A stretch of 64,000 nucleotides of DNA from the NCBI GenBank assembly GCA_021202925.1, contig JAJQCD010000038.1, forward strand, positions 187,970 to 251,969, given 5' to 3'. The translations under genes were made by a program, and so were the position numbers. Positions 17,501-59,202 of this stretch are shown here, piece by piece. The stretch's first letter is position 1. Every line of letters begins with the position of its first letter. The notes below the pieces were generated by a model. That model ran no database searches, had not been told where the DNA came from, and saw nothing but the letters and a program-made list of their open reading frames with translations. The DNA is from Clostridiales bacterium (GTDB lineage Bacteria > Bacillota > Clostridia > Lachnospirales > Lachnospiraceae).

Positions 17501-17516
17501 CTGCCAAAAAGCAAAG

Positions 17517-17897
17517 TATGAGCAAGACGATAAGCCGGGTTATGTCGTTGAATGGTCATCTGTCTAGGCCGTGCGTCGCCGCCCGGCTCAAGCAACCTAC
17601 CCGAAAGCAGACGGGCCGCCTTATGCTTTCTGTTCGGTTTTGCTTCGGATGGGGTTTACATGTGCCCTGTCTGTTGCCAGACAGGCGGTAGTCTCTTACA
17701 CTGCCCTTCCACCCTTACGTCAGGAATGAAACCGCCATGCCCTGCGCATGGCTCATTGCTGACGCGGTACATTTCTGTTGCACTGTCCCTGGAGTCGCCT
17801 CCGCCAGACGTTATCTGGCATCCTGCCCTGTGAAGCCCGGACTTTCCTCTCCCGCCGCCTTTCGGCTGTGCGGCAGCGACCATTTGTCTTACTCAGA
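17517..17897 (-). ncRNA. rnpB: RNase P RNA, type A
   Basis: Catalytic RNA that removes 5' leaders from precursor tRNAs. Conserved blocks are visible on the minus strand: GAGGAAAGTCCGGGCTTC near 17848-17865, GAAGGGCAGTGTAAGAGA near 17694-17712, GGTAGGTTGC near 17590-17600 and the terminal GGCTTATCG. The P1 helix forms between GAGTAAGAC (17886-17894) and GTCTTGCTC (17520-17528). Ends are set by P1 and by the promoter, to within a few bases. Confidence 0.93.
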
Positions 17898-32133: not shown

Positions 32134-32139
32134 TCTAAG

Positions 32140-32476
32140 TGGAGCTGAGGGGAATCGAACCCCTGTCCGAAAACCAATTCCCTGTTCTTCTACTATCATA
32201 GTCTGCTGTTTGACATTCCCTCCGCCGCACGGGAACAGATACCCTTACAGTTTCAGTAGCTTCATCATACGCCCATACACGCAAAGCTTAATGCATGTCG
32301 TTTCTCACAAAGTCGATGCCAGACATTTCAGATGTGAGTGTCTGAAAGCTGACAGCAGCCCTTAGGCTGCGTATGCTAAATTATCTTCAGCGTTTAATTT
32401 TAATTTTGCCATTTCACGCATCGCATGCGGATAGCTTCACCAGCTGCATGATCCCCGTCGAAACCAGTACAACCCC
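32140..32476 (-). ncRNA. ssrA: Transfer-messenger RNA (tmRNA)
   Basis: Rescues stalled ribosomes with SmpB. The tRNA-like ends pair as GGGGTTG (32470-32476) with CAGCTCC (32141-32147), and the T-arm AGGGGTTCGATTCCCCT is intact. The tag frame, read from its probable GCA resume codon, ends NAEDNLAYAA then TAA, as in other Clostridia. CCA is not encoded: the genome reads CTT after the discriminator A. Its partner gene smpB lies 16 kb away instead of next to it. Confidence 0.95.
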
Positions 32477-32507
32477 TTACCGGTTCGCCGCGACCTCGGC
32501 TATTGTG

Positions 32508-32536
32508 AGTTTACCATTCAGCGACCGGTTTGTCAA
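32508..32536 (-). promoter_or_regulatory. Promoter of ssrA
   Basis: TTGACA and TAAACT on the minus strand separated by 17 bases, about 30 bases before the mature 5' end. Confidence 0.75.
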
Positions 32537-32578
32537 TGGAAGAATCCGGATTGTAAGAATTGTAAGAAAATTGTATCA

Positions 32579-32606
32579 GCGGCCGGACATATCCCTGCCC
32601 GACCGC
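32579..32606 (-). terminator. Hairpin after ilvE
   Basis: GCGGTCGGGC and GTCCGGCCGC on the minus strand form a stable stem about 40 bases past the ilvE stop. The T run after it is interrupted. Confidence 0.6.
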
Positions 32607-32648
32607 TTCTTTTGTCTTTCAATTATGTCAGAATCTTTCCTCTGCACC

Positions 32649-33674
32649 TTACAGGATCGTGTGAATCCATCCTTCCGGAGCCTCGACGGTACCCATCTGA
32701 ATACCGGTAAGCGTATCATACAGCTTCTTTGTAATCGGCCCCATCTCTTCCATACCGCTCGCGAAGCAGATCTCCTTCTCGTGATCGACAACCTTGCCAA
32801 CCGGAGAAATGACCGCCGCAGTGCCGCACAGACCGCACTCGGCAAATTCGCCAATTTCCTCCAGCGTCACCGGTCTCTGTGTGACGCGCAGTCCCAGATA
32901 ATGCTCTGCTACATATACCAGCGAACGTCTGGTGATGGACGGCAGAATGGAGTTGGACTTCGGGATGACAATCTCGCCGCCCTTGGTCACAAACAGGAAG
33001 TTCGCGCCGCCGGTCTCCTCCACGAAGGTCTGGGTACCCGAATCCAGGAACATATTCTCATCAAAGCCTCTCTGATGTGCCAGCACATACGGATGCAGGC
33101 TCATTGCGTAATTCAGTCCCGCCTTGATATCGCCGGTTCCGTGAGGAGCCGCACGGTCAAAATCGGATACACAAATCGTCAGCGGCTTCGCGCCGCCCTT
33201 GAAATACGGGCCGACCGGGGTCACCAGAATACGGAACTGATATTCGTCAGACGGCTTCACACCGATAACCGGGCCGGTTGCAAACATATAAGGGCGAACA
33301 TACAGCGTCGCTCCGCTTCCATACGGCGGCACCCACGCGGCATTCGCCTTCACCACCTGCTCCATCGCGTCAAGGAAACGCTCCTTCGGAAACTGCGGCA
33401 TCTCCAGACGCGCCGCGGAATTCATCATGCGTTCCGCATTCAGATCCGGGCGGAAGGTAACGACATGGCCGTCCTCTGTCGTGTAAGCTTTCAGTCCCTC
33501 AAAAATCTCCTGGCAGTAATGCAGAATACCTGCGCACTCATTCATTGTCACATTCGGATCTGTCGTCAGCGTGCCCTCATCCCAGGCTCCGTTTTTGTAA
33601 ACAGACACATAGCGATAATCCGTCGTCATATAGGCAAATCCCAGATTGCCCCAGTCCAGATTTTTCTTCTCCAT
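32649..33674 (-). CDS. ilvE: Branched-chain amino acid aminotransferase
   Basis: PLP-dependent class IV transaminase, 341 residues, for the last step of valine, leucine and isoleucine synthesis and the first step of their breakdown. It shows the substrate-site YVRPYMFATGP, the PLP-lysine region GLNYAMSL and the C-terminal ECGLCGTAAVISPVG. GGAGG precedes the ATG by seven bases. It is transcribed alone, between the glycyl radical enzyme island and ssrA. Confidence 0.95.
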   Translation of the reverse strand: MEKKNLDWGNLGFAYMTTDYRYVSVYKNGAWDEGTLTTDPNVTMNECAGILHYCQEIFEGLKAYTTEDGHVVTFRPDLNAERMMNSAARLEMPQFPKERFLDAMEQVVKANAAWVPPYGSGATLYVRPYMFATGPVIGVKPSDEYQFRILVTPVGPYFKGGAKPLTICVSDFDRAAPHGTGDIKAGLNYAMSLHPYVLAHQRGFDENMFLDSGTQTFVEETGGANFLFVTKGGEIVIPKSNSILPSITRRSLVYVAEHYLGLRVTQRPVTLEEIGEFAECGLCGTAAVISPVGKVVDHEKEICFASGMEEMGPITKKLYDTLTGIQMGTVEAPEGWIHTIL

Positions 33675-33777
33675 GATTCATCCTCCATCTGTATTTTCTT
33701 CATAGACCGATCCCCGACTTTTTCCGGCCAAGCAAGCCAAACCTCCGTCTCCTGTACCGTCCTGCTCAATTATCCCG

Positions 33778-33806
33778 ATTATAACGCCGTTGTCCACCAA
33801 AATCAA
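33778..33806 (-). promoter_or_regulatory. Promoter of ilvE
   Basis: TTGATT and TATAAT on the minus strand with 17 bases between them. The leader of about 100 bases has no T-box motif that I can see. Confidence 0.65.
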
Positions 33807-33878
33807 TCATTCTTTTCGGTTTTCCCCATTCATTTCAGTCATATCTTTTATAACCGCCACCCCCGGGGTCACGGTCCG

Positions 33879-36269
33879 CTATGATGCAAGGTGTGCAGTT
33901 CTGGCTATGATAGCGTTCTGTACTGTTAAATCAAGCTCCGTAAAATAAGCCATATAACCGGCTACCCGCACAACGATATCCCGGTAATTTTCCGGATCCT
34001 TCTGCGCCGCCCGTAACGTTCTATCATCCACAACATTGATTTGAATATGAAGACCATCCTGCTGTACATATTCTTTAATCACACTTTCAAGAATATGCAG
34101 TCCCTTTTCTCCTGCCACTCCGCTGGGATCAAAGCGTAAATTCATCAAAGTACCATCATAAAGCTCACACTGGCACATATTTCTGCTCATGGAATTAACC
34201 GTAGCTGTTGGGCCTTCCGTATCCCTCCCCATCATCGGCCCCGCATTGTCGCTTAGCGGCGTGTAAGCAAAACGTCCATCTGCGGTTGCTCCGACCTTAT
34301 ACCCCATAGTAACGCTCACCGTCTGCGCCTGATTGCAGAAACAATAATGACCATGGCGTGCATCAGTCATTTGCTGAACATAATGCGCAGTATCGCGAAT
34401 CAACTCGCAACAAATACCATCCACCTCCTCATTATCATTTCCATATTTCGGTACTTTGTTCAGAAGTTCCAGCCGCAACCGCTCATTTCCCTCAAAATTC
34501 TGATCCAGAATTTCGGTCAGTTCTTCCAAAGTGAGCTTCTTTTCATCAAACACATACTGTTTCACCGCTACAAGAGCATCCGCAAGCGAAGCCGGACCAG
34601 TGCAGAAGATACCAGAATAAGTGTGATTTGCTCCTCCCGACTGTACAGCTATCCCTTTCTCAATGCACCCCTCCAGCAACATAGAAGAATAAACGCACGG
34701 AATCCTGGTACAATGATAAGCCACAATCTGATTAAAACCCTTATGCAACAGATCATACCAATGTCTCAATTCCATCTTTACTGCCTTCATCACATCGTCA
34801 AATGTTTTTAAAGACTCTACGTCGACAACCGGTCCAAGAAGCTTTCCCGTCAGCGGATCTACGCCACCATGCATGACCAGTTCCAGACACTTTGGGAAGT
34901 TTACATAACCGCCGTACGGGCTTCCATCCGTTCCACCCATACCAGGATGTGGCTCCACACATCCAAGGATAATCCATTCTCTGGCTTCCTCCAACGTGCC
35001 GCCTTTCTCCTGCACAATCTTCAGCGCAGCCTGATCCCCAAAAAAAGCCGGGTTAGCCTGGCCATCCTGTATCATCTCACAGCCTTTCCGCCATATGTCC
35101 TCCGGCGTTTTTTCATGAACACGAAGTGCAACAGCCGGCTGAGAAAATTTCAACTGTGAAGCAACATTCAGCGTCATACGCGTGACTGCGTTTGTAACAT
35201 CTGCACCCCTGCGATCCACGCCTCCCAGCATCAGAATCTGCCACAATGGATATCCGGCAAAATCCCTGCTGTAATCATCCGGGCGAAGCATAATAATTTC
35301 CATGGATTTTACAAAAAGGCACGAAATCAGTTCCTCTGCAAAGGCCTCCGTGATCGCCCCCGTCGCCACATCCTTCTCATAGAGAGGACCCATGTACTCG
35401 TCAAACCGCCCGAATCCATTTGCAGAAGCATTCGTTTCAATATAAAGTCCATGATAAATAAACCACATAAATTGCAGACCTTCATAAAACGTCTCCGGCG
35501 GATTCTCCGGTACCTTCCTGCAGATTCTGGCAATTTCCAGAAGCTCCCGTTTTCTCTGCGAACTGTTTTCCTTTTTGCTCATACGCTCTGCCAGATCCGC
35601 ATAACGCCTGGCATAACGAATCATTCCTTCCGCACAGATGATACATGCGTTCCAAAAATCCAGTCTGGGCTGTGCATCCACATCAACGCCTTTTTCCACC
35701 TGTTCAGCTATTCTGTCCCTGCACATCTGAATATAACCCTTCAGGCCGCGCTGAAACATCAATGCATAATCCGGAACAGTCTTACCACTGGCAATCGCAC
35801 GTCCACCCACTGACAAGACACCTGATTTCCTGGCTTCCTGAACGTCAGTCGTTAAAAACGTCTCCGATGCCTCCTCTGTACTCTTCCCCATCCACCATTT
35901 CATTGTTTTCAGAATCGTCTCCCGATCCTCTGGCAGAACATCCAGCGGATCATTCGGGCGAACGGGCAGACGATCCAGTCCTAACATTCCATTTTCATCT
36001 TTTTGAAGGAGCCATTGTCCGGTATATTCCGGGAAAACAGATGCGCTGCGAATCCGTTTATTCGTGCTTCCCACCAACAGTTCCCCATCCCGAATCAGCA
36101 ACTCCATATGATCCAGCACATAAGCAAATACTCTGGCCCGGAAAACAGGGGCTGCCTCGCCGCCGAATTCCCGATATGCTTCCGTTACTAACACCAGCCG
36201 CTCCGCCGACAGACTCGGCCTGGCATTTACCACAATTTCTCTCATTTTCTGAATTCGTTCCGCTATCAT
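33879..36269 (-). CDS. Glycyl radical enzyme, dehydratase/lyase class (GRE1)
   Basis: A 796-residue oxygen-sensitive radical enzyme. The thiyl Cys437 lies in GCVEP together with Glu439, the general base typical of the eliminases (glycerol, propanediol and hydroxyproline dehydratases, choline and isethionate lyases) and absent from pyruvate formate-lyase. The radical glycine is Gly771 in RVAGYMAYF. It is clearly a paralogue of the enzyme at 37248-39644. It is the last gene of the unit SDR - GRE2 - activase - GRE1. No microcompartment genes are nearby. The substrate is unknown. Confidence 0.9.
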   Translation of the reverse strand: MIAERIQKMREIVVNARPSLSAERLVLVTEAYREFGGEAAPVFRARVFAYVLDHMELLIRDGELLVGSTNKRIRSASVFPEYTGQWLLQKDENGMLGLDRLPVRPNDPLDVLPEDRETILKTMKWWMGKSTEEASETFLTTDVQEARKSGVLSVGGRAIASGKTVPDYALMFQRGLKGYIQMCRDRIAEQVEKGVDVDAQPRLDFWNACIICAEGMIRYARRYADLAERMSKKENSSQRKRELLEIARICRKVPENPPETFYEGLQFMWFIYHGLYIETNASANGFGRFDEYMGPLYEKDVATGAITEAFAEELISCLFVKSMEIIMLRPDDYSRDFAGYPLWQILMLGGVDRRGADVTNAVTRMTLNVASQLKFSQPAVALRVHEKTPEDIWRKGCEMIQDGQANPAFFGDQAALKIVQEKGGTLEEAREWIILGCVEPHPGMGGTDGSPYGGYVNFPKCLELVMHGGVDPLTGKLLGPVVDVESLKTFDDVMKAVKMELRHWYDLLHKGFNQIVAYHCTRIPCVYSSMLLEGCIEKGIAVQSGGANHTYSGIFCTGPASLADALVAVKQYVFDEKKLTLEELTEILDQNFEGNERLRLELLNKVPKYGNDNEEVDGICCELIRDTAHYVQQMTDARHGHYCFCNQAQTVSVTMGYKVGATADGRFAYTPLSDNAGPMMGRDTEGPTATVNSMSRNMCQCELYDGTLMNLRFDPSGVAGEKGLHILESVIKEYVQQDGLHIQINVVDDRTLRAAQKDPENYRDIVVRVAGYMAYFTELDLTVQNAIIARTAHLAS

Positions 36270-44905: not shown

Positions 44906-45799
44906 GTGAAAGCGTGTATCAGCAATATTCAGAAATTTTCGGTTGATGATGGCCCGGGGATCCGGACTACAGTATTTTTCAAAGGCTGCAACCTGCGATG
45001 CGCATGGTGCCACAATCCGGAATGCATCAGCCCTGTCTCTGTCCTGCAATTTACCAAAAGCGCCTGCACTTGTTGCGGGCGTTGTGCCGCTGTATGTCCA
45101 GCTGGAGTACACAGCATCGGCGCAGATGGCCACCTGATTCGACGGGAAGCCTGCCTGGGTTGCGGTGCCTGCGAAAAGGCATGTCATTCTCAGGCGCTAA
45201 AACAAAACGGCCTGTTCTACTCGCCGGAAGAAATAATGGATATCATCCTCAAGGACAGAGAATTTTACATTGACAGCGGCGGCGGCGCCACCTTTTCCGG
45301 CGGCGAACCCATGCTTCAGCACGAATTCCTGAAGCAGCTCCTTTTTCTATGCCGTGACAATCAGATTTCTACGGCAATAGACACCGCAGGTAATGTGCCC
45401 TATGAGTGGTATGAGGAGCTCCTTTCCCTGACGGATTATTTCCTTTATGACATCAAGCTGGCTACGCCCGCTCTCCATCAACAATATACGGGCGTCGATA
45501 ATACACAGATTCTTGCCAATATCCGCAAACTTTCCGAGGCTGGCGCAAACCTGATTGTTCGCGTACCTGTAATTCCCGGTGTCAATGATGCCACAGAGGA
45601 GCTTGAAAAAATTGCGAACATTCTGACAGAAATTTCACCTCAGTTGGTTCAACTGCTGCCCTACCACAGCTATGGAACCGGAAAATATGAATCATTTGGC
45701 TTGAAAAACCCGCTTGGTGTGTTAACTCCACCATCTCGGGAATTCATGGAGCAGGCACTTCAAATGTTCCTGCGCAACGGACTGAGAACATCATTTTAA
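44906..45799 (+). CDS. Glycyl radical enzyme activating enzyme (activase B)
   Basis: A 297-residue radical SAM activase. The Cys-x3-Cys-x2-Cys motif is in CNLRCAWCHNPE (about 28-35), two ferredoxin-type cluster motifs follow (CTCCGRCAAVC and CLGCGACEKAC), and GGGATFSGGE lies near 125. It starts with GTG at 44906, one base after the previous stop, and precedes the GRE3 gene by 19 bases, so it is the dedicated activator of that enzyme. Confidence 0.93.
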   Translation: MKACISNIQKFSVDDGPGIRTTVFFKGCNLRCAWCHNPECISPVSVLQFTKSACTCCGRCAAVCPAGVHSIGADGHLIRREACLGCGACEKACHSQALKQNGLFYSPEEIMDIILKDREFYIDSGGGATFSGGEPMLQHEFLKQLLFLCRDNQISTAIDTAGNVPYEWYEELLSLTDYFLYDIKLATPALHQQYTGVDNTQILANIRKLSEAGANLIVRVPVIPGVNDATEELEKIANILTEISPQLVQLLPYHSYGTGKYESFGLKNPLGVLTPPSREFMEQALQMFLRNGLRTSF

Positions 45800-45818: not shown

Positions 45819-48098
45819 ATGGCTGTAAAGGAAATGAAACTGGATGATCGCCTGAAACCGATCATGGAACACCACATTGAACTTTTTGACCGCGCAGAAA
45901 TTCCGGTTCGAGATCAACTCTACGAAGAGGCGTTCGCCTGGCATAAAGAAGAACCGACGGCGCTGCGTTTTGCCTATGGTTTGAAAAATTTTCTTGAGAA
46001 AAAGAAAATCAGTCTCCAGGAATACGATATTCTGGCTGGCTTTGCCTATCGCTATTCTTACAACACTACCATGCCTATCGATTTCCCGCGCGACTACGAT
46101 CCAAGGCTGCGTCCGGCAAGAATGATCTCTCAGAAAATGGAAGCAAGCATGTGTCAGGAATACTACGGGTTCCCTGATGACTGCACAGAAATGGAAGATT
46201 TCCATTTTTTTGAAAGTGCCATTCGCGGCGGTGGAATCAAGCACTGGGAATCCGGACACATTCTTCCCGGATACCATAACATCCTTCATAAGGGATTTGG
46301 GGGCCTGATCGCAGAATGCGATATTGCCCTGAGCAAAGAGCACTCCGATCAGGAGAGGATGTTCATCACCTCAATGAAGATCTGTGCCGAAGCCAGTGCC
46401 AGCTACATTCTGCGGTTCCATGAACTGGCGTTAAAGCTACTGAAAGACTGCAATAACCCGATACACCGGGCCCAGCTACATCGCATCGCATCTGCCTGCG
46501 CAAATATCGCCTATCAGCCTGCTTCCAATTACTTTGAGGCTGTGCAGTTGCTCTGGCTCAGCCACGAAATTATGTACGGCGAAAGCATTCCGACTTCTAC
46601 TTCGCTCGGACGCGTGGATCAATATCTTGATGAATACTACTGCAGGGACGAGGAAGCCGGTCTGATCGATTATGAGGAAGGCAGTATTATCCTCCAGGCA
46701 CTGTGGATCAAATTCAGCACAACCATCCATGCCTATCAGAACATTACGCTTGGCGGCTGCGACGCCAACGGCAATTATCAGGCAACCCCTGTAACCTATA
46801 TGGCACTTCAGGCAACCCGTTTGCTGAGAAACGATCAGCCCTTGCTTTGTCTGCGTTACGCAGACAATATTCCCCAGGATCTCTGGGAGGAGAGCGTCGC
46901 GCTTCTGAAATGTGGTCTTGGTTTCCCTGCGTTTTTCAGCGATGCCAATACCGTCGCGACTCGCATCCGCGCCGGTCATACACCGGAAGACGCTCACAAT
47001 TTTGCACTCATAGGCTGCGTAGAACCAGGCGCCCCTGGTGCAGAATACTCCAAAACCGAAGTTCTGCGTGTCAACTGGGCCAAAGTTATGGAACTCTGCC
47101 TTGCAGGAAAAAATGCATATGGCTCAGACGAAAAACTGGCACCCTATCGTCCTCATGCGCTGTCCGAATTCACGGATTTTGATTCCTTCTACAACTGGTA
47201 TAAGGAAGAACTGCTTCATTTTACCTACCGCGCCATGCGTGTCATCAATCTGATGGATAAACCGTGGCCATTCTACTATCCCACCCCATGGCTGAGCCTC
47301 ACCATGGACGGATGTATTGCAAACGGAATGGACGTCACTGGTGGCGGAACCCGCTACAATAACTCCGGTATCAATACAGCTGGCATGGCAAACGCTGTAG
47401 ACTCACTCGCCGCAATCCGTAAAGCTGTATTTGAGGATCACCGCGTGACTCTTCAAGAATTAGCAGATGCCTGCGCATGCAATTTCGAAGGTCAGGACGA
47501 TCTGCTGCATTATCTGAAAACAGAATGTCCGAAATTTGGTAATGATGATGATCGCACGGACGCGCTCATGGCTGACCTGACCGCCGCTTATGCGAAAATG
47601 ACTGACCGTGTCCGCAATCCCAGAGGCGGCAAGTGGCAGTTAGGTCTTTATACAGTCGAAGATCACGCAAAACTCGGCACTTTGACCGGCGCACTCCCGG
47701 AAGGACGCCTTGCCGGCGTCAGCCTGGCAAATGCCATGTGTCCAGTACAGGGTGCCGACCATGTAGGACCAACCGCCGTCATCAACTCCATCTTAAAAAC
47801 AGACCAGAGCGTGGCCACCAACAACATGGTGTTGGACTTGAAGTTCAATCCTGCTTTCATGGAAAAACCCGCACATATTGAAGCACTAAGGTCTATGATC
47901 CACTCCTATTTTCGACGGGGTGGCCTGGAAATCCAGTTCAATGTCATTGATCGTGCCACACTGGTGGACGCGCAGAATCATCCGGAAAAACACAGAAACC
48001 TGGTTGTTCGTGTATCCGGTTTCTCTGCTTACTTTATCACGTTAATGAAGACAACACAGGATGAGATTATCAATCGAACCGAATATGCAGCCATCTGA
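45819..48098 (+). CDS. Glycyl radical enzyme, dehydratase/lyase class, divergent (GRE3)
   Basis: A 759-residue glycyl radical enzyme of a different branch from GRE1 and GRE2. Cys400-Val-Glu402 is in IGCVEPGAPGAEYSKTE and radical Gly734 is in RVSGFSAYF. The glutamate again places it among eliminases. The N-terminal half (for example EMEDFHFFESAIRGGGIKHWESGHILPGYHNIL) shares little with the other two, so it probably acts on another substrate or a later step. It is the last gene of the right arm. Confidence 0.9.
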   Translation: MAVKEMKLDDRLKPIMEHHIELFDRAEIPVRDQLYEEAFAWHKEEPTALRFAYGLKNFLEKKKISLQEYDILAGFAYRYSYNTTMPIDFPRDYDPRLRPARMISQKMEASMCQEYYGFPDDCTEMEDFHFFESAIRGGGIKHWESGHILPGYHNILHKGFGGLIAECDIALSKEHSDQERMFITSMKICAEASASYILRFHELALKLLKDCNNPIHRAQLHRIASACANIAYQPASNYFEAVQLLWLSHEIMYGESIPTSTSLGRVDQYLDEYYCRDEEAGLIDYEEGSIILQALWIKFSTTIHAYQNITLGGCDANGNYQATPVTYMALQATRLLRNDQPLLCLRYADNIPQDLWEESVALLKCGLGFPAFFSDANTVATRIRAGHTPEDAHNFALIGCVEPGAPGAEYSKTEVLRVNWAKVMELCLAGKNAYGSDEKLAPYRPHALSEFTDFDSFYNWYKEELLHFTYRAMRVINLMDKPWPFYYPTPWLSLTMDGCIANGMDVTGGGTRYNNSGINTAGMANAVDSLAAIRKAVFEDHRVTLQELADACACNFEGQDDLLHYLKTECPKFGNDDDRTDALMADLTAAYAKMTDRVRNPRGGKWQLGLYTVEDHAKLGTLTGALPEGRLAGVSLANAMCPVQGADHVGPTAVINSILKTDQSVATNNMVLDLKFNPAFMEKPAHIEALRSMIHSYFRRGGLEIQFNVIDRATLVDAQNHPEKHRNLVVRVSGFSAYFITLMKTTQDEIINRTEYAAI

Positions 48099-51032: not shown

Positions 51033-51845
51033 TCACATCATTGACCGGTATTCCTGCTTCCACTTCGCGATCCGCTTCGCCTCCCCTTCCTGGCGTCGCG
51101 GCAGATCACGTTTAAAAAGAACCTCTAACTGACCGGCTGCCTCCGACCCGGCTGCGCGCTGCCTGGCCGCTTCCATATCCGCATCCCATTTTTCCTGCAG
51201 CTCCGGAGTGAGCCTGAATTTCTGCCGTTCACCAGGCTTCAGTCTGGCATCGAGCTTCGAAAGATAATAAATCCGTTCAAGAACACTCTGCTGATTCCAT
51301 GCCACATAAGAACGGCTGTAAGCGTCAAACGCTTCCTCCAGCCGGAACATTCTGGCATAACAGGAACCCATATTATTCAGGACACAGGCCCGAAAATGAT
51401 CATCAACAACCGAATCCGCCTTCCAGTCGGCCAGTTCCTGATACAATTCCAGCGCCCGCCTGTACTGACGAATAGAAAAAAACTCATCTGCCTTCCGTTT
51501 CCGATACTCCGCCGGATGCTTTTTGCGGATATCCGCTACCGTCTGGCGAAAACGACTGATCTGCGCCCCCGTACAGTAATCGCACTCCTGTAGGATCATC
51601 ACCAGCGTCTCGTCCGGATTCTCCCCGCTCTTTTGCCAGCGCTCAATCTTCAGCGCCAGAAAACCATGGTTCAGTTCTTCCCTCAGAAAATTCAGCAGCG
51701 CGTCGCTGACAAAGCCATCCATCACCAACAACGGATAATGCACAATCACATACGAAAGCTCCTGTGACGAATAGATCCGGATGCCCATCTCCTCCGCGTA
51801 AAAAGGGCGGGTCACATGCTCTTGCTTACATAACAATAAACTCAT
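51033..51845 (-). CDS. TPR-like protein of a conserved three-gene operon
   Basis: A 270-residue protein I cannot assign. The middle part (about 110-200) has TPR-like helix pairs (SIRQYRRALELYQELADWK, NNMGSCYARMFRLEEAFDAYSRSY), and the C-terminus is charged and helical. It overlaps the preceding Hsp70-like gene by four bases, so the two proteins are made together. TPR proteins are common co-chaperones and scaffolds; that role is inferred. Confidence 0.75.
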   Translation of the reverse strand: MSLLLCKQEHVTRPFYAEEMGIRIYSSQELSYVIVHYPLLVMDGFVSDALLNFLREELNHGFLALKIERWQKSGENPDETLVMILQECDYCTGAQISRFRQTVADIRKKHPAEYRKRKADEFFSIRQYRRALELYQELADWKADSVVDDHFRACVLNNMGSCYARMFRLEEAFDAYSRSYVAWNQQSVLERIYYLSKLDARLKPGERQKFRLTPELQEKWDADMEAARQRAAGSEAAGQLEVLFKRDLPRRQEGEAKRIAKWKQEYRSMM

Positions 51846-53065
51846 ATCATAACCTCTTGCATCACCGAGACTCCGGTCGATGGAAACAGTTCGCCGAATC
51901 CCTGATCCTTTACATTCACACGCATCGTCCGTTCATCCGGAAATGTAATCCGAATCCGTACCTTGACCGTGCGATCCTCCCGTTTCGGGAAACCATCCAA
52001 CGAAACCGAAACCGTCCGTTTCTTCTTCGCATCCGCCGCGACAATAAAGTCCACCGTATCCTGATGATCCGGAATGACATCAAGCACCGCTTCTCTGCCG
52101 TACCAGCTGTCACCGGCAGCAGCCAGAATCACCGATGTTTCCTGGCCTTTGCGCAGAACATTCATGGTAACCGTTGACTGCAGCCGCCCATCGCAAAGAA
52201 TTGTGTACGGATAAGCGGTCTTATCCCGCAGGAGATCCTGCGCCAGATACGCCGCACCCTTTGCGAATACATCGGTTTCCATATAGACTCTCCGCTTGAC
52301 GCAAAGCATCTTCATAAACCCTTCCGCCCAGTCACGGTTCTCAAATCCCTTTCCGGTCAGAAATACCGATGAATACAGCTTTTTCTGCATCATCCGCTCT
52401 CCGCACGAACAGAGAATCTTGTCTGCCAGCTTTGCTCCGGCCGGAGTATTCAGAATATCCAGACTGATGCTCCCTTCTTCCAGGTTCTCATACTCACAGA
52501 CAACCGTCGATTCCCTGGCGCCCCGTTGCAGCTTCATCTCGTAATAACGGAGGCGTTCTTCCGAAAGATCAAACATTCCTACTGTTCCACACCAGATTTC
52601 CTTCTTCTGGCTCATGATATAATATACAAAGCCCTCCGAATGGGAAATCACACGGACATGCTCCTTCTCCACCCCCAGTTCCTGCGCACACTCGCCGAGG
52701 ACTGTGATCAGCTTCGGGCCTGACTTGCGAACGGAAAAGACGATACCCTCTGTTTTTGTCTCTCCATTCTCTTTCAGAAACTGCTGCACGGCTTCCCTGA
52801 CAAAACGCTTCAGAAGCTCCCGGCCTTCATAGCGGGTTCCCCCCAGCGTCGCTGTCCCATTCTTCAGCATCTGGCTGACCAGCTGATCGACAAGGACACA
52901 GTCTTCCGTCAGATTGTGTGCATAGGCGTCTTCGCCGATAAACCAGGCATCTTCTTCCCTGCGTCTGCAGATTACAGTCGGATACAACCGCGGCTTCTCC
53001 TCCGGCACACAGTCAATCCGCGTATATTCATCACACAGATCAATACCTACAATCATTCCATCCAA
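51842..53065 (-). CDS. DUF5716 family protein, divergent Hsp70/actin-like ATPase
   Basis: A 407-residue protein annotated in this family only as DUF5716. Reading the sequence, I find the segments of an Hsp70-type nucleotide domain: MIVGIDLCDEYTRI at residues 4-17 (phosphate 1), VISHSEGFVYYIM at 139-151 (connect, cf. the NEPTAAALAYG position), VGMFDLSEERLRYY at 162-175 (phosphate 2), VFLTGKGF at 234-241 (adenosine) and AKGAAYLAQ at 268-276. The tail (about 350-392) with RIRITFPDERTMRVNVKD resembles part of a DnaK substrate-binding beta domain. Usual Gly/Thr residues of both phosphate loops are changed, so ATP turnover may be weak. Function is unknown. Confidence 0.75.
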   Translation of the reverse strand: MDGMIVGIDLCDEYTRIDCVPEEKPRLYPTVICRRREEDAWFIGEDAYAHNLTEDCVLVDQLVSQMLKNGTATLGGTRYEGRELLKRFVREAVQQFLKENGETKTEGIVFSVRKSGPKLITVLGECAQELGVEKEHVRVISHSEGFVYYIMSQKKEIWCGTVGMFDLSEERLRYYEMKLQRGARESTVVCEYENLEEGSISLDILNTPAGAKLADKILCSCGERMMQKKLYSSVFLTGKGFENRDWAEGFMKMLCVKRRVYMETDVFAKGAAYLAQDLLRDKTAYPYTILCDGRLQSTVTMNVLRKGQETSVILAAAGDSWYGREAVLDVIPDHQDTVDFIVAADAKKKRTVSVSLDGFPKREDRTVKVRIRITFPDERTMRVNVKDQGFGELFPSTGVSVMQEVMI

Positions 53066-53092
53066 ACCTCTCTCTTTTCCATCTGTCCGGCC

Positions 53093-56000
53093 TTACATGA
53101 TGCCGAATAATTCTTCCATCATCGCGCCATCTGTCACATACTTTCTCATTTTCTCCTTCAGTGTATCCTCTTCCTTAAGCGACAGACAGAGACTCATTTC
53201 GTTCAGAGCGGAAAAACGGCTGTCCGCATTCTTTTTCTGATTTACATCACAGGAAATGCTCTCTTCCCGGACCATTCTGCGGTCACCGTCCTGCGACTCA
53301 TAAATCTGATATTCCAGCAATTCACCCTCGAAGAGTACCTTCTTCCAGACATATATTCCCGGATATACCTTCTGCATCTCCTCACAGGCAAATTCCTCCT
53401 CGTCCGGAAGAATGCGCACAGAAAGTTCCGGATGACTCTCCCGTCCGCCCCGATACTCCACAATCACCTTGTCCATGATCGAATCCGGCAATGGCATCAA
53501 CCGCCCCAAATCCTGGAAATAAGCAAACACACGTCCCTCTCCCAGAAGCAGTTCTACGATTTCAGCCGCCAGCTCCTGTCGCTCCGGTTCCAGCGATTGC
53601 AGCGTCGAATAATACTTTGTCAGCGCGAGCAGATAAATCGTCGGAATCCGGCTTCGGTCTCCTGCACTGCCCACCACGCCTTCCAGATATGCGAATACCC
53701 GGACGCCCGTATCCTTCTCCCGCAGAAAATAGTCCGCCGACTTCCAGGTAAAGTAGGCCTTCATCACCAGTTCACTCGTGCGCCTGCCATCCACATACCA
53801 GTCGAATACCTGATCGATGCGGTCTGTCTCTCCGGAAAACATCATCTGGGCAAGCAGCCGCTCCGGCAGATCAGAAAGTTCCACATGATCGTGAACTCCC
53901 TGGCTCAGAATCCGGAACATCTGTCTGGTCGAACCATTGAAATGCTCGCATAAATAATCCAGCATTGCACTGTCAAACTGATTATCAGAAAACAGCATGC
54001 AGCAAAGCTTAACCAGTGCTTCTTCCTCCTCAAACAGCCCCCTCAGAATCAGTCCGGAACACAGCTTTTGCAGTCGTACAGTCTGGATACCCTCGCAGCC
54101 ATATTCACTCACTGTCCGGAACGCATCCCGCAGATACCCCTGCTCAATCAGCGCCTCGCAGGCGCCGGCGCGTTCCTCCCGGCCCAGTTTTGCCAGATCC
54201 AGGTCGGACAGAAAATCCAGATTTTCTCCGGCCAGACTTTCCTTATCATCCAACTGTCCCCGATAATAGGCAATCAGCAGCGACAGAATCCTGCGCCGGA
54301 ACAAAGGATGCAGCTTCAGATCTGCAATCGCCTTCTTCAGCGCCAACGCATCCGCACCGCCGCTGATTCCATGTGCTGCGATCTCTCCGCATTCCTTTAA
54401 GCGAAGCATCGTATGGTTTGGATGAACCTCATAACATCTGTCCTCCAGAGCCGAAATATCCGTCCGCTCCAGCGCCGGGAGTTTCCGATACGAGATGTCC
54501 GCATAACGATTGCCATAGGCATCCTGGAACAGGATCAGCGGTCGATGGGAAAACAACGGCACATAAGCAGTCCCATTGGTCACAGGGAAGGCGTCTTCCC
54601 CCTCAATTTCCTCATAACAGACCACTACATACCGGATATTCGGATTCTTTACACGGATCCGGTACGATTTGAGAATGGACGGAAGCACACGGGCCACCCG
54701 TTCGTCAATCATCTCCCGGTAGATCATATGATCATACAACACTACAAGCTGCCGGGTGATGCGCGAATGCAGAAGCTGTTCCATCGTAAACTTCTCAATC
54801 TCCCGTTCATACTGCTTGTAAAGCGGCGTCTCCGGATTCATATAACGAATGATATTCACATAGAGTCTGGAACGACTCTCCTCATCCATATTCCTGTCGT
54901 AGGAAAAATACATCAGCACTTCCTTCGGCAGCAGGTACGGATAATCCCTTGGCAGTGCATACAGGAAATATTCATACAGCCGCGTCAGGCTGATCCCTGC
55001 CTCCAACGCCTTCCGATACCAGTCAAAGCAGCCTTCTTCTCTCCGGTCGCCCCGGATCAGAATACTGCAGACCGCACTGAGGATTGGCTTCTCCGCATAC
55101 GTCTCATACAGAGTCTCAAACAGACGGCAGGCAACCCGGTTGTAATACTTCATCACTGTGGCCAGCTGCGCCGCCCGCAGCGCCAGATCATATCCCACCA
55201 GCTGCCGCCGCGCCGCAAAACAGAGTACCTGACGTTCAAAGCTCCCCAGCTTGCCAAGTAAAGCCGGATTCTCTTCGTATCGTTTCCATGCTTCCAGATA
55301 GAGCCACGGGCTATGACAGCCGCTGTCGAAATACTGTCTCAGCTGATCCAGTACATTCGACGGCTCCTCCGACAATTGCGGCTGCAGCTTCAACAGGATC
55401 AGATAAAGCCCCGCATGTTCATATTCTGAATCCGGATCCGCAATGGCGCGGTTCACCACACGGATAATCGCCTCTCTCTGTCCTTCCCGCTGTTCGACCA
55501 GATACAGCAGATACTGATGCGCACAATATAACACCCGTTTCTCCAACCGGTGCTGATTGATCTCACCACGGCAGCTTTCCAGAAGCTCTGCTGTCTTCTC
55601 CATATCCTGCCGCAGATACGCAAGCTCCGCCAGACGCAAAAGCACCGGTGCCGTGTCTCCGCCCTTCTCTCTCAGGGCCTCCAGCTCCTCCTCCATCTTC
55701 TCCGCAAGCGAACGTCTTTTCTGCTTCAATAATACCGGATCCGCATCGGCCGCCGTCTCGTAATCCAGCCGGTACGACAGATAACGGGCCAGTTCCGCCT
55801 GACCATTTCTGCGGCTGACCGCGCCCCGCTCCGCCCCTTCAAACGCCTCCACCGGCACAGAAAAACGATTCTTGACAGAAGAAATGCACACGGCTCCCAG
55901 ATTCCTGCCCATATGCAGACGCCCCGGATTCATCACATAGCGAACCGTGCAGACGCCATTCTGAAAATCCTGTGAATGAAAACTCTTTTTCGGAATCTCG

Positions 56001-56716
56001 ATGAAATCCCCCTCTGCGGACACATCAAACTGCACATATCCCCAGGTTTCCATCCATACTTCCAGCTCTGCCTCCTGCCGCTCTGTCAGGTTCTCATAGC
56101 GGCGTACCGTCTGATCGCATGTCAGACGCACCGGTTGCTTGACCCGCAGAGCAACCAGAAACTCCTCCATCTGATTCTGCCGGTTCAGACGGCTCCTCAG
56201 TCCGTCATACAAAGCCCGGACATGCAGATCCTGCATGAACGGCGCTTCCGTGAAATCCTGATATTCAAACAATCGCAGCGCCAGCTCCTGATCGGACTTC
56301 GCGAGCTGCGCGAAATCCGCCGGTTCCTTTAATCCCTCCAGCACTCTCCCGGACGCCCCCGGATCGATGGCAAAAGAAAAAGGCACCTTTTTCTCTCCGC
56401 CGTTTGTGACAAGATAAAAAGCACCCGCAATCACATCCTCCTTCGACAACTGCCTTCCGTCAACCTCGTATGTAATGTGATTGCGATTGCCTCCAAATGA
56501 CTCATTATGAATGTGGACACGCATATTGGACGAGTACGCCAATCCTTTAATGAACCGGCCCTCCCTGTCCGACACAAACAGCTTGCCTCTGGTCACTTCG
56601 CCAGCCGGTATCGTATCTTCCACTGACTCCGGCGAAACAACAACCTCCGGGCGATCCGGATCCACAATCCCCTTCGCCAGGCGATTAATTCTCTCTCTCA
56701 TTCCTTTTATCCTCAA
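53093..56716 (-). CDS. DUF5717 family protein, 1207 residues
   Basis: The first gene of the three-gene operon. The N-terminal region (about 30-130) contains beta-rich segments with GEVTRGKLFVSDREGRFIKG, followed by long helical, TPR-like stretches (about 340-960), and the C-terminal part has a VVEYRGG...LSVRILPDEEEF beta region. No signal peptide or membrane helix is visible, so it is probably cytoplasmic. The family is known to me from Lachnospiraceae only as DUF5717. It could be a large scaffold for the Hsp70-like protein; this is inference from operon structure. Confidence 0.75.
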   Translation of the reverse strand: MRIKGMRERINRLAKGIVDPDRPEVVVSPESVEDTIPAGEVTRGKLFVSDREGRFIKGLAYSSNMRVHIHNESFGGNRNHITYEVDGRQLSKEDVIAGAFYLVTNGGEKKVPFSFAIDPGASGRVLEGLKEPADFAQLAKSDQELALRLFEYQDFTEAPFMQDLHVRALYDGLRSRLNRQNQMEEFLVALRVKQPVRLTCDQTVRRYENLTERQEAELEVWMETWGYVQFDVSAEGDFIEIPKKSFHSQDFQNGVCTVRYVMNPGRLHMGRNLGAVCISSVKNRFSVPVEAFEGAERGAVSRRNGQAELARYLSYRLDYETAADADPVLLKQKRRSLAEKMEEELEALREKGGDTAPVLLRLAELAYLRQDMEKTAELLESCRGEINQHRLEKRVLYCAHQYLLYLVEQREGQREAIIRVVNRAIADPDSEYEHAGLYLILLKLQPQLSEEPSNVLDQLRQYFDSGCHSPWLYLEAWKRYEENPALLGKLGSFERQVLCFAARRQLVGYDLALRAAQLATVMKYYNRVACRLFETLYETYAEKPILSAVCSILIRGDRREEGCFDWYRKALEAGISLTRLYEYFLYALPRDYPYLLPKEVLMYFSYDRNMDEESRSRLYVNIIRYMNPETPLYKQYEREIEKFTMEQLLHSRITRQLVVLYDHMIYREMIDERVARVLPSILKSYRIRVKNPNIRYVVVCYEEIEGEDAFPVTNGTAYVPLFSHRPLILFQDAYGNRYADISYRKLPALERTDISALEDRCYEVHPNHTMLRLKECGEIAAHGISGGADALALKKAIADLKLHPLFRRRILSLLIAYYRGQLDDKESLAGENLDFLSDLDLAKLGREERAGACEALIEQGYLRDAFRTVSEYGCEGIQTVRLQKLCSGLILRGLFEEEEALVKLCCMLFSDNQFDSAMLDYLCEHFNGSTRQMFRILSQGVHDHVELSDLPERLLAQMMFSGETDRIDQVFDWYVDGRRTSELVMKAYFTWKSADYFLREKDTGVRVFAYLEGVVGSAGDRSRIPTIYLLALTKYYSTLQSLEPERQELAAEIVELLLGEGRVFAYFQDLGRLMPLPDSIMDKVIVEYRGGRESHPELSVRILPDEEEFACEEMQKVYPGIYVWKKVLFEGELLEYQIYESQDGDRRMVREESISCDVNQKKNADSRFSALNEMSLCLSLKEEDTLKEKMRKYVTDGAMMEELFGIM

Positions 56717-58581: not shown

Positions 58582-59202
58582 TCATTCCAGCTTCTGTCTC
58601 AGCTTGCCGAGCGCCTTCTTCTCAATCCTGGAAACGTAAGACCGGGAAATTCCCAGTTCCGCGGCGATTTCCCGTTGCGTCTTCGGTTTTGTGCCAAAGA
58701 GGCCATAACGCAGCCGGATCACCGTCTGTTCCTGTTCCTTCAGAGACGAAGCAAAGGCCTCGCGCAATTCCTGAATGTTCTGATCGAGGATAATATCTTC
58801 AATCGCTTCCCGGTTCTCCGTCTCAATCACATCGACCAGGCTGACCGCCTCCCCGTCCTTGTCTGTCCCGATCGGTTCATACAGGGATACTTCCCTGGAA
58901 TATTTTTTCCCCGCACGAAGCAGCATAAGGATCTCATTTTCGATACATTTTGCCGCATAAGTGCCAAGCCGGGATCCCCGTTCCGGCCGGAAAGTCCCGA
59001 CCGCCTTGATCAGTCCAATCGCCCCGACCGACAACAGATCGTCCATATCATAATCCGTGTTCTGATATTTCTTCGCCACATGGGCTACCAGTCTCAGATT
59101 CCGCTCAATCAAAGTGCTTCTCGCATCCTGGTCGCCGTTTGCCGCGCGCTCCAGGCACTCCCGTTCTTCGCCGGGTGTCAATGGTTTGGGAAATGTGTTC
59201 AA
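58582..59202 (-). CDS. Sigma-70 family factor, sporulation sigma-K-like
   Basis: A 206-residue sigma factor with region 2 (RNLRLVAHVAKKYQNTDYDMDDLLSVGAIGLIKAV, then the -10 reading TYAAKCIENEILMLLR) and region 4 (REIAAELGISRSYVSRIEKKAL). The FPKPLTPGEE start and SLYEPIGTDKDGEAVSL loop match sigma-K/E proteins. It starts with TTG at 59202 and has no hydrophobic pro-sequence of the kind Bacillus cleaves. The gene is not interrupted by a skin element. A long hairpin covers the region just upstream. Confidence 0.85.
   Translation of the reverse strand: MNTFPKPLTPGEERECLERAANGDQDARSTLIERNLRLVAHVAKKYQNTDYDMDDLLSVGAIGLIKAVGTFRPERGSRLGTYAAKCIENEILMLLRAGKKYSREVSLYEPIGTDKDGEAVSLVDVIETENREAIEDIILDQNIQELREAFASSLKEQEQTVIRLRYGLFGTKPKTQREIAAELGISRSYVSRIEKKALGKLRQKLE

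Follow-up and report, generated by a model that had tools for sequence, protein, structure and literature searches.

Organization of the locus

The subject of this study is a three-gene module of a Clostridiales bacterium of the family Lachnospiraceae, which comprises a DUF5717 gene, a DUF5716 gene, and a gene for a TPR-like protein. It lies at positions 51,033 to 56,716 of a 64,000-nucleotide stretch of contig JAJQCD010000038.1 (positions 187,970 to 251,969, forward strand; assembly GCA_021202925.1), the whole of which is referred to as the window. An initial annotation, made from the sequence alone, had described the three genes as adjacent with short or overlapping spacing. The list of open reading frames (ORFs) of the window agreed with this description: all three ORFs were at the expected places, next to each other on the minus strand (Table 1), with 27 bases between the DUF5717 and DUF5716 genes and a 4-base overlap between the DUF5716 and TPR-like genes. 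The annotated starts of the first two genes were TTG codons, the earliest possible, and the true starts are unsure because an in-frame ATG lies 5 codons (DUF5717) and 3 codons (DUF5716) further in. The window proteins are members of the Pfam families DUF5716 (PF18980) and DUF5717 (PF18984 and PF18983). No NCBIfam model matched the module proteins below E 0.02, and phmmer matched no chain of the Protein Data Bank (PDB) for DUF5716 or DUF5717. Judging from the sequence comparisons reported here, the module is probably the remnant of an operon that was much larger and included four Hsp70s.

Table 1. Features of the three-gene module, in window positions (aa, amino acids; SBD, substrate-binding domain; AF2, AlphaFold2)
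Feature	Position	Strand	Details
DUF5717 gene	53093..56716	-	1207 aa; PF18984 E 9e-255, PF18983 E 5e-85 (Pfam)
DUF5716 gene	51842..53065	-	407 aa; PF18980 DUF5716_C E 9e-93 (Pfam)
TPR-like gene	51033..51845	-	270 aa; TPR_12 E 3e-5, under the Pfam cut-off
Hsp70 nucleotide-domain relic	52208..53065	-	DUF5716 residues ~1-286; profile alignment and residue tests
Phosphate-1 equivalent	53015..53056	-	DUF5716 residues 4-17; DnaK G10-T11-T12 replaced by C-D-E in the window protein
Phosphate-2 equivalent	52553..52570	-	DUF5716 residues 166-171; DLSEER replaces DLGGGT
SBD-beta-like C-terminal part, no alpha lid	51863..52207	-	DUF5716 residues ~287-401; hhalign and VIA of a relative's model
D-x-G-F/L-G signature (DQGFG)	51893..51907	-	alignment rows
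DUF5717 beta domain 1	56357..56653	-	residues ~22-120
DUF5717 beta domain 2	55835..56140	-	residues ~193-294
DUF5717 alpha-solenoid	53474..55828	-	residues ~297-1081, beta insertion 684-747; AF2

Sequence and predicted structure of DUF5716

By profile comparison, DUF5716 is a member of the Hsp70 superfamily; it has a nucleotide domain and a substrate domain that lacks the lid. A profile made from DUF5716 alone was aligned by hhalign with Hsp70-C, one of four Hsp70 types (A to D) of the larger operon, over 411 columns that cover the nucleotide domain and SBD-beta (E 6e-26). When the same profile was compared with the PDB, six of the seven matches were DnaK (best E 2.8e-4). The AF2 model of a natural DUF5716 relative, a DUF5716-TPR fusion, had a predicted local distance difference test score (pLDDT) of 93.9. 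In the comparison with actin and MreB, the best 50 matches listed per fold search of this model (Foldseek, VIA) were all Hsp70-family proteins, judged mainly by their titles, and Ssz1 was among the nearest folds; VIA aligned model residues 7-439 to DnaK 2-551. The Hsp70 ancestry and fold proposed in the initial annotation were recovered, the ancestry by sequence and the fold in the predicted structure of the relative. The Hsp70 segments that it listed do align in order with Hsp70, although the functional nucleotide-site residues are missing, and the beta tail that it likened to a DnaK substrate domain was aligned as SBD-beta both by hhalign and in the relative's model. The SBD-alpha lid is absent, with the window protein stopping 7 residues past the SBD-beta alignment. 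The D-x-G-F/L-G signature was present in all 43 DUF5716 sequences, 28 of 33 Hsp70-B rows, and 11 of 28 Hsp70-C rows, and in none of the Hsp70-A (n = 34) and Hsp70-D (n = 25) rows.

The word ATPase in the initial annotation could not be retained. Six core active-site residues were scored (G10, T11, K70, E171, G197, and T199, DnaK numbering). None of the 43 DUF5716 sequences kept all six, and the maximum kept in any one was two; all six were kept in 87 of 87 Hsp70-A, -C, and -D rows from sister families (83 distinct loci, the 25 Hsp70-D rows deriving from 21). The glycine-rich phosphate-2 motif, K70, E171, and K270 were kept in none of the 43, and the columns of DnaK E267, K270, and S274 were gaps in every one. 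Retention was higher elsewhere: D8 was kept in 31, D194 in 25, and the G341 equivalent in 42 of 43. Misalignment was rejected as the cause of the missing active site, given that the patterns [DE]xGGG[TS] and DxGT[TS] occurred nowhere in the 43 DUF5716 or the 33 Hsp70-B sequences and both occurred in all 87 rows of the other three types. It is most likely, from these residue counts, that the ATP site of DUF5716 has been lost and that the ATPase cycle is no longer run.

Distribution and gene order within Lachnospiraceae

The family sample was an even draw of 200 genomes from 199 genera; like the other genome samples used here, it is not a census. PF18980 (DUF5716) was matched in 198 of the 200 genomes and PF18983 (DUF5717) in the same 198, which is the co-occurrence anticipated for the module. 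As a yardstick, housekeeping GrpE was matched in 197 genomes of a family sample of the same size (200). Each positive genome had one PF18980 match, with the exception of G329.

Gene order was read in 42 family loci: 40 hand-picked from the DUF5717 matches (L105, L106, and L107 were chosen for looking fused), L005 (Lachnoclostridium sp. An14, Lachnospiraceae according to NCBI), and the window. DUF5717 and DUF5716 shared a strand in all 42, and in 40 of them the spacing between the two genes was between -200 and +120 bases (largest gap, 926). The TPR gene was next after DUF5716 in 35 loci, was fused to it in a single frame in six (L105, L106, L107, L131, L133, and L140), and lay past the contig end in one (L143). 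The proportion of fusions (6/42) is an overestimate because L105-L107 were selected for their fused look. The loci of G154, where the module genes are split over contig ends, and of G172 lie outside the 42. Chance clustering of the three genes was rejected in view of the co-occurrence in 198 of 200 genomes and the tight order across 42 loci.

The larger operon of sister families

In an order-wide sample of 196 genomes, PF18983 was matched in 94 (35 Lachnospiraceae and 59 genomes from ten other families). The module had been thought limited to its bacterial group, a description that is incomplete because DUF5717 has relatives in the ten other families. In a phylum-wide sample, DUF5716 was found in 2 of 149 genomes, both Lachnospiraceae. 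We read 40 loci from other families, with downstream extensions for 20. The usual order was Ig-like protein, solenoid, Hsp70-A, GrpE-domain protein, Hsp70-B, Hsp70-C, Hsp70-D (with a vWA domain), and TPR protein. The six parts from the solenoid to Hsp70-D were complete in 25 of the 40 loci, and 14 of the 25 had the TPR gene too (L100, in which only a generic TPR protein was labelled, is not among the 14). Fewer parts were seen in 15 loci, many of which stop at contig edges. The three genes of the window do form a cluster, and the self-contained chaperone or signalling module that the initial annotation saw in them is putative; in 25 sister loci, the DUF5717 relative is accompanied by three Hsp70s with intact sites, by one inactive Hsp70, and by a GrpE-domain protein. 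Likewise, no GrpE or DnaJ was found among the six window genes run through Pfam (the three module genes, rnr, DUF4364, and a sigma factor gene; no search was aimed at DnaJ), in line with the initial annotation, but a GrpE-domain protein accompanies the operon in those 25 loci. The GrpE and DnaK genes of the window's genome sit on another contig.

The Ig-like protein (approximately 390 aa) matches PF18984 positions 13-304, and the sister solenoid (approximately 900 aa) matches PF18984 positions 323-851 plus PF18983. The window DUF5717 thus combines two genes that are separate in most sister loci. Hsp70-A and Hsp70-C matched PF00012 (E 6e-78 and E 2e-63, respectively). Pfam was run on two GrpE-domain proteins and one full Hsp70-D, the remaining members being assigned by profile. 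GrpE-domain proteins were 280-650 aa long with the GrpE domain at the end (PF01025, E 7e-11 and 5e-12 in the two scanned, from L069 and L065). The scanned Hsp70-D (L147:11787-13862) matched PF00012 (E 8e-92) with a C-terminal VWA domain (E 7e-10), and the other Hsp70-D relatives were about the same length. Hsp70-B of L069 matched DUF5716_C (E 2e-33) and HSP70 (E 2e-14) simultaneously. L065 had the whole series, with the Hsp70-D and TPR genes each broken into two ORFs. Among the operon proteins run through Pfam, none showed a GAP1 or GTPase domain, a scan that did not extend to the genes flanking the sister loci. Outside the order, matches to the solenoid profile came from 9 of 243 genomes of the class, none stronger than E 9e-10; they were partial, lay in frames of 230-725 aa, and were taken as generic TPR. 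With its four Hsp70s and its GrpE-domain protein, the sister operon would encode a chaperone machine; no description of it was found in the literature searched.

The operon was scattered in two genomes of family f81 (G407, loci L093 and L160; G367, loci L096 and L158), where the solenoid gene was apart and Hsp70 genes of A, C, and D size were elsewhere.

Descent of DUF5716 and absence of the active paralogues

Of the 164 rows, 77 were used for a tree, which was calculated with IQ-TREE and rooted on DnaK, with branch support from the Shimodaira-Hasegawa-like approximate likelihood ratio test (SH-aLRT). The 18 sampled DUF5716 sequences formed one group (SH-aLRT 99), the nearest relative of which was Hsp70-B of L065 (100). 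DUF5716 and the 20 sampled Hsp70-B together formed one group (100), which joined Hsp70-C (100). The finer branching order is unsure because some Hsp70-B and DUF5716 branches are long. On this phylogenetic evidence, DUF5716 is a descendant of Hsp70-B. Hsp70-B is already inactive in the sister operons (active-site motifs absent in 33) and was thus inactive at a time when Hsp70-A, -C, and -D had not yet disappeared. Across the 10 genomes that have all parts, mean pairwise identity was 0.73 for Hsp70-A, 0.69 for Hsp70-C, and 0.73 for Hsp70-D. The values for Hsp70-B (0.34), the solenoid (0.25), the GrpE-like protein (0.28), and the TPR protein (0.30, two generic TPR proteins left out) were lower. 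The same pattern was seen in 27 genomes. Hsp70-B evolves like the scaffold proteins.

A search for Hsp70s in 41 family genomes did not find Hsp70-A, -C, or -D. Each genome had a DnaK-like match (in broken frames in G286), and some had further Hsp70s. Relocation of the active partners elsewhere in the family genomes was rejected: 17 extra Hsp70s were classified (two short fragments of G151 aside) and none was Hsp70-A, -C, or -D, with scores of at most 332 bits against the three profiles, three members of which score 1070-1333. The same search in four sister genomes recovered their own Hsp70-A, -C, and -D. Two loci, L206 (G281) and L207 (G343), showed Hsp70 matches in very long frames (1516 and 842 aa, respectively) that fell outside all profiles tested.

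A second reduced locus was found in G357 (family f89), where the Ig-like protein, solenoid, and Hsp70-B occur alone. In this genome (96% complete), the Hsp70 search gave DnaK and, beyond it, only one weak and partial match (E 2e-15), tentatively taken for an MreB-type protein. In the tree, Hsp70-B of G357 groups with Hsp70-B of other families and not with DUF5716. This is a second reduction, and the inactive Hsp70 and the scaffold were thus retained twice.

DUF5717 and the TPR-like protein

The initial annotation had described a giant helical protein and a TPR-like protein, and both descriptions held. The AF2 model of DUF5717 (residues 1-1200; pLDDT 86, predicted template modeling score 0.61) predicts two tandem PapD/ASH-like beta domains, followed by a long alpha-solenoid with further beta domains. 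In fold searches, DUF5717 matched HYDIN/central-apparatus, CEP192, and PapD-type domains and scaffold solenoids; the weak matches of its solenoid included Ctr9, SKI complex, and Naa15 entries. DUF5717 is probably the scaffold of the module. The 270-aa TPR-like protein was aligned by hhalign with the TPR family of the sister operon (approximately 387 aa) over 182 columns, the non-TPR start among them (E 3e-33); against the solenoid profile, the probability was only 40. By this alignment, it is a shorter version of the TPR protein encoded at the end of the sister operon.

An optional gene for a two-transmembrane (2-TM) protein

An extra gene of 344-429 aa was found beside the TPR gene in 20 of the 42 family loci. 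Its product has coiled-coil-like arms that flank a two-helix hydrophobic hairpin, and hydropathy gave two hydrophobic segments in 22 of 23 aligned proteins (L110:5221-6405 and 22 relatives; three contigs of other families are among the sources). The two members scanned reached no Pfam cut-off. Among 21 genomes without an adjacent copy (including that of the window; L005 was left out), a search found a clear copy only in G331, where the module is at a contig end; two genomes gave weak matches and 18, including the window's genome, none. The gene was also present in sister loci L151, L148, L162, and L153, with valS beyond it in three. The 2-TM coiled-coil protein is an optional but linked member of the module.

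Neighboring genes and other features of the window

Downstream of the module, on the same strand, are rnr (RNB domains, Pfam) and an ORF identified by eye as smpB-like; upstream is a divergent DUF4364 gene (Pfam). A promoter and terminator scan gave about as many sites as in shuffled sequences. A gene for a SigK-like sporulation sigma factor lies near the module (58582-59202, minus strand) and scored above the cut-off of subfamily model NF004471 and below that of equivalog TIGR02846. An aminotransferase-like gene, recognized by eye (FHGSDLE...), neighbored the module in 17 of the 42 family loci; it was immediately upstream in 14 and divergent in 16 (for example, L183:6096-7208, the upstream gene of L108, and L068:11378-12463 in a sister locus). 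In 7 of the 42 loci and in three sister loci, valS was nearby.

Elsewhere in the window, a 759-aa glycyl radical enzyme is encoded at 45819-48098 (plus strand), with its activase at 44906-45799 (plus strand) and transporter genes alongside. The enzyme scored below the cut-offs of all 11 NCBIfam models listed, none of which therefore assigns it a substrate. Genes for RNase P RNA (17515-17895) and tmRNA (32137-32476) are on the minus strand; a 503-aa ORF (32373-33884) on the strand opposite the tmRNA gene overlaps its end and had no NCBIfam match at E 1e-10.

Proposed role of the module

On balance, it seems probable that DUF5716, DUF5717, and the TPR protein form a nucleotide-independent pseudo-Hsp70 adaptor or scaffold complex. 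DUF5716 retains the body of an Hsp70 and a substrate-binding beta domain without a lid, but most likely runs no ATPase cycle. It is probably bound stably to DUF5717 and the TPR protein, and this complex would hold client peptides or partner proteins. By analogy with yeast, where Ssz1 supports Ssb, clients may perhaps be passed to the housekeeping DnaK. Where the 2-TM coiled-coil protein is present, it may tether the complex to the membrane. Without an ATP cycle, no GrpE would be needed, which fits the absence of the operon's own GrpE-domain gene alongside that of the active Hsp70s.

Several observations weigh against this proposal. No DUF5717 was found in 102 of the 196 order genomes, including all listed members of several families, and the larger operon is therefore patchy. 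PF18980 was missed in two of the 200 family genomes (G213, also without DUF5717, and G217, with DUF5717 cut at a contig end), and in G172 DUF5717 is apart from DUF5716-TPR. The fold evidence rests on a relative that is 26% identical to the window protein across the Hsp70 part, no DnaJ match was found in the operon proteins run through Pfam, and two Hsp70 fragments of G151 (120-aa frames) were left out of the classification of extra Hsp70s. The complex, its client binding, and its link to DnaK are proposals that we infer, and client binding may also have been lost, given the fast divergence of DUF5716.

The main rival is a pure scaffold without client binding, that is, a cytoplasmic or membrane-linked structural assembly without chaperone function, in which the Hsp70 part would be a mere building block. 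The absent ATP site, the fold matches of DUF5717, and the tie of the 2-TM gene to the module would suit such an assembly, but SBD-beta is still recognizable in profile and model, the D-x-G-F/L-G end is kept in every DUF5716, a GrpE-domain protein and Hsp70s whose sites were intact were its partners in the ancestral operon, and the window's genome has no 2-TM gene; we consider this explanation rather unlikely. A locked state like that of Ssz1, with ATP bound as a structural cofactor and not hydrolyzed, appears quite improbable. Ssz1 has a similar fold, and D8, D194, and the G341 equivalent are often kept in DUF5716, but with the phosphate-2 glycines, K70, E171, and K270 missing throughout, the residues needed to bind ATP and those needed to hydrolyze it both look lost.

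Less probable still is a remnant of a conflict or defense system akin to the GAP1-N2 systems, kept or domesticated, an origin that would be compatible with the other readings. One GAP1-N2 theme has a similar part list, but the operon proteins gave no sign of GAP1 or a GTPase, and PADLOC reported nothing for the three window proteins and two weak matches among five relatives (ZorA3, E 1e-3, and PDC-M61B, E 2e-7, both on sister proteins and both dropped). The near-universal, mostly single-copy presence and the shared flanking genes point to vertical descent. Finally, an active Hsp70-type ATPase chaperone can hardly be maintained: the Hsp70 fold and segment order are there, but two core residues at most remain in any sequence and the window has no module-linked GrpE.

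The module is of interest as a mostly single-copy set of three genes in nearly all sampled genomes of one large family, with evolutionary stages that can be followed clearly. Here a dead Hsp70 has persisted beyond its active paralogues, a natural experiment through which the role of an Hsp70 body without ATP becomes directly testable. Pfam describes no function for DUF5716 or DUF5717, and their connection with Hsp70 and with the larger operon comes from the present analysis. A search of the full text of 5.39 million papers gave no relevant mention of either family, and the operon was undescribed among the matches listed.

Comparison with known systems

DUF5716 (407 aa) differs from the DnaK of the same genome (629 aa) in that it has no intact active site, a gap at E267, K270, and S274, no lid, and no local GrpE. 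The larger operon resembles systems reported by Kaur et al. (2020; PMC7159879), who described GTPase-centered GAP1-N2 systems, some of which include HSP70, GrpE, and proteins of the FNIII-DnaJ or FNIII-TPR kind. In one theme, HSP70, GrpE, and a second HSP70 without the peptide-binding domain occur with an FNIII protein fused to DnaJ or TPR; the parts in common with the operon are HSP70, GrpE, a second and degenerate HSP70, and a beta-sandwich/TPR protein. The operon differs in that the scanned proteins include no GTPase or GAP1, the full form has four Hsp70s, and the reduced form is near-universal in one family.

The published analogue of the proposed mechanism is Ssz1 of the fungal ribosome-associated complex (RAC). 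According to PMC7083937, Ssz1 is a lidless Hsp70 that binds ATP without hydrolyzing it and requires no classical nucleotide exchange factor; its partner at the ribosome is the J protein Zuo1, and it hands nascent chains on to Ssb. By sequence, DUF5716 shares the lidless form, whereas no J domain was found in the scanned proteins of its operon. We tentatively suggest, at somewhat less than an even chance, a bacterial counterpart of the RAC principle: the ancestor of the order would have had a multi-Hsp70 machine (three active Hsp70s and one dead Hsp70, a GrpE-domain protein, a vWA domain, an ASH-like/solenoid scaffold, and a TPR protein), from which one large family discarded the enzymes and kept the dead Hsp70, scaffold, and TPR protein as a near-universal, nucleotide-free complex that holds clients.

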